IMG/VR virus record: IMGVR_UViG_3300031706_000024
Span: 1-30,766 of that record
DNA from: a virus
Direction: 5' to 3' (one strand)
DNA: 30,766 nucleotides
The notes under the pieces: generated by a model
Database searches by the model: none
The model's input: the letters and a program-made list of their open reading frames with translations, nothing else
What the model was told of the DNA's origin: nothing
Shown: positions 14,895 through 18,228 of the stretch, in pieces
Layout of the letters: each line of letters begins with the position of its first letter
Position numbering within the stretch: the stretch's first letter is position 1
Made by a program: the position numbers and the translations under genes

Positions 14895-15407
14895 ATGAAA
14901 ACTATACCTAACGTAACTTTTAAAGTAAGAACTAGGAATGTTGATAGTGGAGAGTTCGATTGGACCCATCCTACAACGGAAGACTATTTTAAAAATAAAA
15001 GAGTAGTTGTTTTTTCTCTACCCGGCGCATTTACCCCAACCTGTTCAAATAATCAAGTCCCAGGATTTGACGTACTACACGATCAAATTATTGAGAATGA
15101 TGTTGATGAGATTTATTGTATTGCATGTAACGATACATTCGTTATGAATGCTTGGGCTGAAGATTTAAGAGTTAAAAACGTTAAATTTATTCCTGATGGT
15201 TCTTGTGAATTTACAGCAGGAATGGATATGTTAGTCGCAAAAGATAATCTTGGTTTCGGTAAAAGATCTTGGAGATATGCTATGGTCGTAGACGATGGTA
15301 CTGTTGAAAGAATGTTTGCTGAAGAAGGAATGGAAGATGACTGTGGAACAGATCCATATAGCGAAACAACGCCTGAAAAAGTACTTGAGTATTTAAAAGG
15401 CAAATAG
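14895..15407 (+). CDS. Peroxiredoxin (Prx5/AhpC-TSA family)
   Basis: 170 residues, full length for the Prx5 type. The peroxidatic centre PGAFTPTC holds T47 and C50; VDEIYCIACNDTFVMNAW is the conserved following strand and helix; GKRSWRYAMVVDDG contains the third active-site residue, an arginine. It would reduce hydrogen peroxide or alkyl peroxides. Prx5 enzymes often use glutathione and glutaredoxin, and this phage has a glutaredoxin at 1366. SD TGGAAA is 8 bases before the ATG. The gene follows hsp20 and ends at a strong terminator, giving a stress-protection pair. Other cysteines (near 75, 78, 110 and 154) could be resolving residues. Confidence 0.93.
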   Translation: MKTIPNVTFKVRTRNVDSGEFDWTHPTTEDYFKNKRVVVFSLPGAFTPTCSNNQVPGFDVLHDQIIENDVDEIYCIACNDTFVMNAWAEDLRVKNVKFIPDGSCEFTAGMDMLVAKDNLGFGKRSWRYAMVVDDGTVERMFAEEGMEDDCGTDPYSETTPEKVLEYLKGK

Positions 15408-15466: not shown

Positions 15467-15490
15467 GGAACCCTTCGGGGTTCCTTTTTT
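15467..15490 (+). terminator. Intrinsic terminator after the peroxiredoxin gene
   Basis: Stem GGAACCC (15467-15473), UUCG loop (15474-15477), GGGTTCC (15478-15484), then six T (15485-15490). It is a textbook rho-independent terminator for the rightward transcript. The leftward strand has no T run after the stem, so it is one-directional. The stop codon of the leftward tape-measure-like gene overlaps its T run. Confidence 0.93.
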
Positions 15491-17345
15491 ATGCCATTGA
15501 GCCAGACGGTAAACTGGTTCCGCCGCCAAATCTTCCGCCAGGACTTCCCACAACAACAGCATTAGTACTATTCTGTGAAGATACTCGATTATCAGAAGTA
15601 TTCTGTACCATTGTATCTCCACCTTTGGAAATATAATTATTCGTTATGTTTAAAGCAAATCCACCAGCTGCAACTGTTTGTTTTTTATCTCTTTCTTCAA
15701 CTGATGGAGCTATATTTGGTTTGGCTGCCTTTACTTCTGCCGTAACTTCATCAACCTGATCATTTAATTTATTTGTTTTTTCAACTGTCACTTCAGCAGC
15801 TTTTAGTTCAACTGTTCTCATTTCTAATATTTTTCTTGAGGTGATTAATTGTTGTTCTCTTAATAATCTTTCTTTCTTCGCATCTTCAAGATCTTTTATA
15901 ACCTTAGACTTACGTACTGACTTACCATCCACCATAACATAATCAGTGGCATTACTTCTACCTATTCTCTTGTTTGTTGTTTCGCCAGCCAACCCAGCTT
16001 CCAGAGCTTTAATGTTAAGGTCATCGGCGAGATTTGAAGTTGTTAGACCATCAATGATTTCTTGCACGCGAGCTGTTGTAGTAGCAGTTAAGGCCGCGGC
16101 CTTTTGATCCCTTCCGTACATCAATGATAACTTGTTCTGTCTTTTTTCGTTTTTTAACGCTTTCTCTAATTCGTTAGGAATTTTATCTACATCATTCCTA
16201 ACATCATCTACAAAATCGTATCCAACCGCGCCGATGCCCGATACAGCCCCAAAGATCGCGCCAGCAATTGCACCAGGTATAGCTCCAACCCCACCACCAC
16301 CTACAGCGCCAATCGCACCACCAACACCAGCACCAGTAAGAGTTTCTGTTAAAATTGTTCCGAAGCCTTTTCTTTCATTTTCAAACGTATCTACTAATTT
16401 TTTCGTAACTGCAGCATCTTCAGCATCGCCCGCAGCATTAATTTTTGCGATATCTGCTGTAAGATCTATGGGCTCGTCATCGTCACTCAACATATACTGA
16501 ACACCGCCAATAGTTACTAACGATAATGCGCCAACAACAAGTCCGCCTTTACCTTTAGCTTTGCCGAGAATCTTTTTGAATCTAGCTTTCTTTGATGTTT
16601 TCTTATCAGGACCATCACCACCCGTACCTATAACATCAGGGCCGCCGCCACCACCAACACCCATTGTTTTTGCAGCAAGCATCATAGTTGCATACATAAC
16701 ACCCCACTTAATTCCGGCCATAGCTAATAAACCAGCACCAATAGATGTCCATGGGTTGTTAAAGATAAATTTACCAAATTCACTTTCACCAACTTTTTTA
16801 TAGAAGCTAGACATTTCACCTTCACCAAAGATCCTATCAAGTAACCCTTTAATTGCGCCTGCTAATACTGGTATTATAATTGCCCACTTGCCAATGCTTA
16901 ATAACGAACCCCACGGATCTGCCTTTATTGCCATGAATCCATCTTTTAGACCTTTGAATCCACCCATAAGAGCTAACTTTAAAGATTTAGCTTCAATAAT
17001 AGATTCAGACTTATTTTCTTTATTTGTGATAGAATCTTTTTGAGCTTCTTTTCTTCTTGCCAGTTCGGCAGCTTTTTCTGTCTTATCCAAGCCATTCAAA
17101 CTTTCATCAATATTTTGAAGTAATACTTCGTTTCCTTGCCAAGAATCTGTTAAGACTTTAGCTGTTTGTTCAGAGCTTATTTGAATTGCAGCAAAAGCAT
17201 CAGTAAATTTCTCAAGATTAATTGTAATTGCTTTAATCGAATTCGTGCCAGAGTTCCTTACAAGATCTCCTTCAGATTTAAGACGATTAACTATAGCCTC
17301 AGTCTCTGGGCTTAGATTCTTTTTCTTTGGTGTTGTTTCAGCCAT
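15489..17345 (-). CDS. Tail tape-measure-like protein
   Basis: 618 residues, close to T4 gp29 (590). The N-terminal 130 residues are helical and charged. Hydrophobic segments lie around 147-172 (SLLSIGKWAIIIPVLAGAI), 200-228 (TSIGAGLLAMAGIKWG, MMLAAKTMG) and 268-285. A Gly/Ala-rich stretch near 330-380 (GAGVGGAIGAVGGGGVGA) and a coiled-coil-like region near 480-540 follow. This pattern fits a tape measure that sets tail length and later helps form the DNA channel. The strongest support is position: it starts 12 bases after the frameshift extension of gp26, the order of tail assembly chaperone then tape measure seen across tailed phages. Similarity to T4 gp29 itself is not obvious to me. Confidence 0.65.
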   Translation of the reverse strand: MAETTPKKKNLSPETEAIVNRLKSEGDLVRNSGTNSIKAITINLEKFTDAFAAIQISSEQTAKVLTDSWQGNEVLLQNIDESLNGLDKTEKAAELARRKEAQKDSITNKENKSESIIEAKSLKLALMGGFKGLKDGFMAIKADPWGSLLSIGKWAIIIPVLAGAIKGLLDRIFGEGEMSSFYKKVGESEFGKFIFNNPWTSIGAGLLAMAGIKWGVMYATMMLAAKTMGVGGGGGPDVIGTGGDGPDKKTSKKARFKKILGKAKGKGGLVVGALSLVTIGGVQYMLSDDDEPIDLTADIAKINAAGDAEDAAVTKKLVDTFENERKGFGTILTETLTGAGVGGAIGAVGGGGVGAIPGAIAGAIFGAVSGIGAVGYDFVDDVRNDVDKIPNELEKALKNEKRQNKLSLMYGRDQKAAALTATTTARVQEIIDGLTTSNLADDLNIKALEAGLAGETTNKRIGRSNATDYVMVDGKSVRKSKVIKDLEDAKKERLLREQQLITSRKILEMRTVELKAAEVTVEKTNKLNDQVDEVTAEVKAAKPNIAPSVEERDKKQTVAAGGFALNITNNYISKGGDTMVQNTSDNRVSSQNSTNAVVVGSPGGRFGGGTSLPSGSMA

Positions 17346-17356
17346 TTATATTAACC

Positions 17357-17533
17357 CTATTGCTTTCGTTGTTCATTCTGTTCTTCTATCCAATTAACTA
17401 GCATACTAAAATAAAGATCTCTTTCAAAAGGCATCATAGCCTCAATTTCAGACACAGACCATTTGTGGTGTTGCGCCATGGAGAAAATCATTTGATAGTA
17501 ATGCCCTAACGTTATATGGCTAAGGCTTAGATA
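17357..17533 (-). CDS. Frameshift extension of gp26 (tail assembly chaperone second part)
   Basis: After a -1 slip at 17533-17539 the frame stays open for 58 codons and ends at TAG (17357-17359). Its product would be fused to residue 232 of gp26, giving a 290-residue protein. The extension contains LGHYYQMIFSMAQHH and then SEIEAMMPFERDLYFSML, with a charged C-terminal helix; the MPFERDLY pattern is typical of tail assembly chaperone C-terminal parts. No SD precedes its internal ATG codons (17491 and 17479), so independent initiation looks less likely than frameshifting. An independent 44-residue protein from 17491 remains possible. Confidence 0.6.
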   Translation of the reverse strand, partial: YLSLSHITLGHYYQMIFSMAQHHKWSVSEIEAMMPFERDLYFSMLVNWIEEQNEQRKQ

Positions 17534-18228
17534 AAAAAACTACGGGTGCCCTCCACGACAAACGTATTTTCTTTACCTTCACTATTCGTATATGGTAATT
17601 CTTTTCGTATCTTCGGCATTGTTTCAAAGAACGAAGTAATTCCTCGAATAACATCTCCACCGAGACTATCCATAAAGGACTCAATATCTTCATCACTATA
17701 ATCTTTAAAACTATGTACTTCATCTTCTGAAGCTAATGTATCTAAACAAGAAATCATTACAAAATAGTTAACTAAAGGATCTTGACTATTCATACCAACA
17801 ATCTTTATGAATTCATTAATAGATGGATACTTTAGAAACAGAGTATACTCATCGTTTACTTTAATTTCATTTGTATGAGTTTCATCTCGAGCAATATCAA
17901 TCTCTCTCATATCAAGTTCTAATTCAATTTCTTCATCCGTGTCAGGATCTTTAATTTTGAACTTAGCCAAGTTATCAACTGAGCGTGCTCTTAATGTTAA
18001 ATAAACATATTCAAAATCAAACAACGCAAGTTCTTCAACATCTTTATCAATTAAGCAATTAGAAATGATTTGTTTCATTGCTAATACTTCTTGTTCCGCG
18101 TCATCCGCTTCTTGTGAAACTAATAATATCTTTTCTTCCGCTACAGAAAAAGGTCTATATTTAGTTTTTTCACCTGTACTCGGTAAAATCAATTCCGAGA
18201 TCGGTAAGTTAATTTTTGGTAGTGCCAT
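17527..18228 (-). CDS. 26: Baseplate hub/tail assembly protein gp26
   Basis: 233 residues. The start MALPKINLPISELILPSTGE, then TKYRPFSVAEEKILLVSQE and MKQIISNCLIDKDVEELALFDFEYVYLTLRARS, are typical of proteins annotated gp26 in T4-like phages; the length is close to T4 gp26 (208). It acts in hub and tail assembly. The last codons are AGT TTT TTT ATC TAA, a slippery run that opens a 58-codon -1 extension, so gp26 here may be the short form of a tail assembly chaperone pair. SD AGGAG on the minus strand precedes the ATG. Confidence 0.85.
   Translation of the reverse strand: MALPKINLPISELILPSTGEKTKYRPFSVAEEKILLVSQEADDAEQEVLAMKQIISNCLIDKDVEELALFDFEYVYLTLRARSVDNLAKFKIKDPDTDEEIELELDMREIDIARDETHTNEIKVNDEYTLFLKYPSINEFIKIVGMNSQDPLVNYFVMISCLDTLASEDEVHSFKDYSDEDIESFMDSLGGDVIRGITSFFETMPKIRKELPYTNSEGKENTFVVEGTRSFFI
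17533..17539 (-). other. Slippery heptamer T TTT TTT (putative programmed -1 frameshift site)
   Basis: On the minus strand the gp26 frame reads AGT TTT TTT ATC TAA. The heptamer T_TTT_TTT has the X_XXY_YYZ form with correct phase. A shift by -1 avoids the stop three bases on (17527-17529) and enters the 58-codon extension. I see no convincing downstream pseudoknot, but lambda-type sites do not need one. Confidence 0.6.

Follow-up and report, generated by a model that had tools for sequence, protein, structure and literature searches.

A T4-type gp26 homologue of an uncultured phage as a probable tail assembly chaperone gene read in two forms by -1 frameshifting

In E. coli dnaX, a -1 frameshift takes place on the heptamer A AAA AAG, with a Shine-Dalgarno (SD) sequence ~10 nt before it and a stem downstream, and the shift shortens the protein. 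The tail chaperones G and GT of lambda, reportedly treated by Xu, Hendrix and Duda in 2004, are a short form and a long form made by -1 frameshift, from a gene directly before the tape measure gene. For the T4-like phages, the abstract of the 2022 study by Vladimirov is said to describe frameshifting conserved in several groups. According to two papers that cite this study (PMC10885494, PMC12846349), the T4-type tail assembly chaperone (TAC) genes were identified by Vladimirov, Gautam and Davidson (Virology 2022, 566:9-15). Citing the same work, the PRFect paper (PMC10885494) attributes to some T4-like phages a pair of TAC genes, one of them short and the other a long fusion, and the Adele paper (PMC12846349) poly-T slippery sequences to T4-like TAC-N genes. 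The latter also describes a TAC of Vandenendeviridae/Andersonviridae with a -1 frameshift at GTTTTT that is routinely missed in annotation. The role of T4 gp26 and gp51 in hub assembly has been unclear. A review of the T4 tail lists both as hub assembly chaperones, with gp51 essential and of unknown function (PMC3004832). A short gp51 of cyanophages was noted by Sullivan et al. 2010, with no frameshift named in the relevant passages (PMC3037559), and in one Acinetobacter phage record both gp26 and gp51 are already annotated as tape measure protein assembly chaperones.

Here, we analysed a stretch of 30,766 nucleotides from an uncultured virus (IMG/VR record IMGVR_UViG_3300031706_000024, the window). 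Its gp26 locus is very probably the TAC gene of a T4-type phage that makes a short and a long form by -1 ribosomal frameshifting. The earlier note on this DNA was not aware of a frameshift established for T4-type gp26, but this was already the subject of Vladimirov et al. 2022, as cited in PMC10885494 and PMC12846349, and the frameshift described here is a further member of that published system. As far as the citing papers describe the T4-type TACs, they have in common with our locus the protein family and the short/long pair; what is added here is an uncultured relative, together with a stem whose 3' arm shifts and an SD-like bias. The features of the locus are as follows.

17550..17554, minus strand: GGAGG, SD-like element and candidate frameshift stimulator, 10 nt 5' of the heptamer.
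17540..17542, minus strand: TAG in the -1 frame, immediately 5' of the heptamer (sequence).
17533..17539, minus strand: slippery heptamer T TTT TTT, in phase with gp26; T TTT TTN in 115/119 non-redundant homologues.
17527..18228, minus strand: gene of a gp26 homologue, read in the zero frame to give TAC-N (233 aa) and closed by TAA at 17529-17527; matches PF12322 and phrog_150.
17503..17526, minus strand: 8-bp hairpin, candidate frameshift stimulator, arms 17526-17519 and 17510-17503, starting 6 nt after the heptamer.
17360..17533, minus strand: -1 frame extension (TAC-C), 58 codons; phrog_634, conserved in homologues with mostly third-position changes.
17357..17359, minus strand: TAG, stop of the extension (sequence).
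15489..17345, minus strand: probable tape measure protein, 618 aa, from its position, size and hydrophobic segments.

Re-reading the sequence bore out what the earlier note had said of the two frames: the gene (18228-17527) ends AGT TTT TTT ATC TAA with the heptamer in phase at 17539-17533, and 58 codons can be read in the -1 frame (17533-17360) before the TAG at 17359-17357. The gap to the tape-measure-like gene, given there as 12 bases, is 11 bases from the extension stop to the ATG at 17345. The DNA pattern GATTTTTTTATC has no match in the window, because the context there is a TAG before the T run and then seven T, i.e., AGTTTTTTTATC. As this TAG (17542-17540) directly precedes the heptamer, translation begun further upstream in the -1 frame cannot run into the extension. 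We infer that slippage takes place at this site, at a rate by which most ribosomes would stop at the gp26 TAA and release the short chaperone (TAC-N), while a minority would move back by one base at T TTT TTT and make a predicted long form of 290 aa (TAC-NC) carrying a gp51-type C-terminal domain. The upstream SD-like sequence and the downstream hairpin would help the slip, and the frameshift would thus set the ratio of TAC-N to TAC-NC. By analogy with lambda G/GT, both forms may coat the tape measure protein, probably the product of the next gene, and deliver it during tail tube assembly.

The locus resembles dnaX in the upstream SD sequence ~10 nt from the heptamer, in the slippery heptamer itself and in the downstream stem, and differs in having a T run instead of A AAA AAG, as well as in the outcome, since the dnaX shift shortens the protein. 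The likeness to lambda G/GT lies in the arrangement, with a short form and a predicted frameshifted long form from a gene directly before the tape measure gene (here a probable one); gp26 is longer, and its fold match is limited to the N-terminal 93 residues. With the Vandenendeviridae/Andersonviridae TAC (PMC12846349) it has in common a poly-T -1 frameshift at the end of TAC-N; these are different phage families, likened here by their sites.

The family assignments and the fold both bear on the identity of the gene. The fused query matches PF12322 (T4_baseplate, E 1.1e-46) and phrog_150 (E 3.3e-60), the extension falls into phrog_634 (gp51; "baseplate hub assembly catalyst") with E 2e-22, and the window record holds one copy of PF12322. 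An AlphaFold2 model of gp26 (pLDDT 85.8) has as its best PDB matches 3fgx (Z 7.6), the HK97 tail assembly chaperone 2ob9 (7.5), YqbN 3klu (6.9) and 5ir0 (5.5), with the next one at 4.3; all of these Z values are under 8, which may mean only a common arrangement. Foldseek matches the model to a TAC at E 0.38, and the fold match covers residues 1-93. The comparison of this model suggests, without being decisive, that the N-terminal domain of gp26 most resembles HK97-type TACs, in agreement with the proposal of the earlier note that gp26 may be recast as a tail assembly chaperone.

The 618-aa protein encoded downstream is taken as a tape measure protein from its position, size and hydrophobic segments; a search by sequence found no tape-measure family or known tape measure protein matching it. 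Comparable proteins follow the extension in most relatives, most of the complete ones having 500-1,100 aa. Facing the end of these tail genes from the opposite strand is a peroxiredoxin-like gene (window 14895-15407; phrog_2281, E 1.1e-65). Elsewhere in the window, the N-terminal part of a protein encoded at 5655-6710 matches phosphoheptose isomerase (phrog_1238, E 4.3e-20), and 8-1024 encodes the C-terminal part of a DNA polymerase (phrog_262 positions 514-851) with an initial ATG close to the edge of the window.

To see how far the site is conserved, 179 gp26 loci whose 3' end is complete were gathered from viral contigs and annotated phage records, 119 of them non-redundant at 90% identity. 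The earlier note had asked whether homologues keep a slippery run at the end of gp26 and an open -1 frame; 115 of the 119 keep both, with T TTT TTN in phase beside the stop (69 TTC, 38 TTT, 5 TTA and 3 TTG). The distance from heptamer to stop is 0-9 nt, and exactly one codon in 101 loci. The -1 frame is open over a median of 59 codons (minimum 51 among loci uncut by a contig end), against a median of 4 codons for the +1 frame; one locus, L182, extends off its contig end. Other xF[F/L] tripeptides within gp26 are encoded with T6N in just 16/252 cases, and the product of the synonymous-choice probabilities for the T run is ~10^-48 over the 115 sequences before allowing for relatedness, so that it overstates the significance, these sequences being related. 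The spread over phage groups does not depend on this figure: the layout of the window recurs in independently sequenced isolates of Kyanoviridae, KVP40-type phages, Aeromonas PX29, Rhizobium/Sinorhizobium phages and Pseudomonas pf16. From codon 2 of the -1 frame on, differences in 31 disjoint pairs of close relatives fall at third positions in 140 cases versus 78 at first and 44 at second positions; the -1 frame is under purifying selection from just past the slip site.

These data also bear on two explanations in which the ribosome does not slip. Homopolymers are error-prone with some technologies, and the frame break could in principle be a sequencing or assembly error within what is really one ORF. 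However, the break recurs, always as -1, in more than 100 lineages including complete isolate genomes, and in the sole apparent in-frame fusion (L040), 185 bases of the otherwise identical locus L037 are missing; we regard such an error as practically out of the question. L040 matches L037 exactly upstream of the missing stretch and with one base different downstream, and was discounted as the product of a deletion or of a junction made in assembly. The loss, in the region L040:1179-1900, spans the gp26/extension junction and is joined at a short repeat. Alternatively, the fusion could arise by slippage of RNA polymerase on the T run, for which the window offers seven consecutive T. Since 69 of the 115 non-redundant loci carry only six T (T TTT TTC), this is very unlikely, all the more as the heptamer is always in phase and is accompanied by SD-like and stem signals that polymerase slippage does not need.

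The two signals flanking the ribosomal slip site were compared with recoded and shuffled sequences. In the 26 nt before the heptamer, pairing to the anti-SD exceeds that of synonymous recodings (mean z -0.99, 115 loci; control regions +0.12); GGAGG is present in the window at this place and may act as a stimulator of the slip. Downstream, 70-nt segments fold more stably than dinucleotide shuffles (mean z -2.1, versus -0.3 for controls within gp26), and 87-nt segments more stably than synonymous recodings (mean z -2.39, 113 loci). In the window itself, the 79-nt stretch containing the hairpin has a folding z of -2.6, and against synonymous recoding the hairpin region has a moderate advantage only (z -1.65); three pairs of this hairpin are changed on both sides in 7 relatives, against 0 or 1 in slid controls.

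In the clades with a strong stem, its 5' arm begins ~5-7 nt past the heptamer, and the end of the 3' arm lies near position 29, 35, 64 or 88, according to clade. Compensatory changes are found in four clade groups, with far lower values in slid controls: a covariation of 0.250 versus at most 0.062 in the first group, 0.262 versus 0.083 in the group of the window, 0.125 versus 0.051 in the third and 0.321 versus 0.073 in the fourth. These groups were picked for a shared stem position, which biases the percentage paired upward, so the compensatory changes are the evidence, their counts being of sequences and not of independent events. Both the SD-like element and the stem are thus present, in keeping with a ribosomal frameshift, and would stimulate the slip.

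The extension connects the locus with T4 gp51, which matches PF12322 over residues 1-201 and phrog_634 over residues 147-246. This content rules out gp51 as an unrelated protein; T4 gp51 is a paralogue of gp26 that carries the extension in the same reading frame. The homology between the window and T4 gp51 is drawn from their matches to these shared families, since a direct phmmer comparison of the window fusion with gp51 gives a weak match. Counted over whole records, two PF12322 copies are present in T4, JSE, KP15, Konradin, VP8 and CfP1, and one in all other sampled records. The gp26 gene ends without an in-phase T TTT TTN in 6/6 of these two-copy phages, T4 included, and with one in all sampled single-copy records but four Vibrio/Ackermannviridae-like ones. 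The gp51 copies group together (100/99) in a tree built from the shared domain, where one branch (100/98) splits all copies of the two-gene phages from the single-gene phages. This tree is unrooted and fits either one duplication that took the place of frameshifting in the T4 lineage or the opposite order of events.

The four exceptions among the single-copy phages (GR28A, SD25, K469 and SUMAE) cluster in the tree (99/95) and keep the extension in the -1 frame without a canonical heptamer. The loci of this type are given on the following line.

L093:4150-4420, L190:4200-4430, L189:4180-4410 and L092:4180-4425: Vibrio/Ackermannviridae-like gp26 loci without T TTT TTN.

In place of the heptamer, these phages carry NNT TTY NNN TAA (GCT TTC, GTT TTT, CTT TTT and CTT TTC), where a slip on one tRNA or a restart after the stop may operate. 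The GTTTTT of Vandenendeviridae/Andersonviridae resembles these sites, e.g., CAC GTT TTT CGC TAA. Apart from this one side group, every sampled single-copy lineage keeps the heptamer, the open -1 frame, the extension and the RNA signals as a set. Phages that lack the slippery run and encode the second part as a separate gene, which the earlier note had named as evidence against a frameshift, correspond in part only to what is found in the T-even phages, with their full fused second copy (gp51), and in the Vibrio/Ackermannviridae-like group, with its non-canonical site or stop-start overlap.

Alternatively, the extension could be read as a separate small gene, i.e., a truncated gp51 with its own start or made by termination-reinitiation, and no fusion. 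In GR28A, SD25 and K469 the stop overlaps an ATG by one base (TAATG), many public records annotate the extension in this way, with a separate CDS in several, and cyanophage gp51 is described in the relevant passages of Sullivan et al. 2010 (PMC3037559) as having ~20% of the non-cyanophage length. However, the first ATG of the extension moves between codon 2 and codon 25, and 9 of 113 loci have none within the first 31 codons; in the window, where it is codon 15, conserved residues precede it. As its place is not conserved, an own start is unlikely. Moreover, a separate gene gives no reason for the retention of the in-phase heptamer, and the T4 homologue has the segment fused to a gp26-like domain. 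Overall, we consider a separate gene improbable, and frameshifting into the extension remains the reading that we prefer.

For the family as a whole, we put forward a tentative model, somewhat short of a probable one. The T4-type TAC frameshift would be driven by a stem with a fixed 5' arm (5-7 nt after the heptamer) whose 3' partner has been relocated between clades (~29, 35, 64 and 88 nt), each version being kept by compensation, so that the stimulator would have been rebuilt repeatedly; in addition, the Vibrio/Ackermannviridae-like group would have replaced the canonical heptamer by a slip on a single codon or by coupling of stop and start. In the literature consulted, in which Vladimirov 2022 is represented by the papers citing it, we found no description of an RNA stem with a clade-shifting 3' arm or of a Vibrio/Ackermannviridae-like group without the canonical heptamer.

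In none of the 12 isolate loci examined are gp26 and the extension joined in the annotation. These unjoined frames, as well as the marine "gp51" called truncated, would both be explained by an extension that is the latter half of a frameshift product. The versions of the conserved stem provide a natural set of frameshift stimulators for testing, and a locus of the type found in the window connects the phages that frameshift a single gene with T4 and its two genes, gp26 and gp51.
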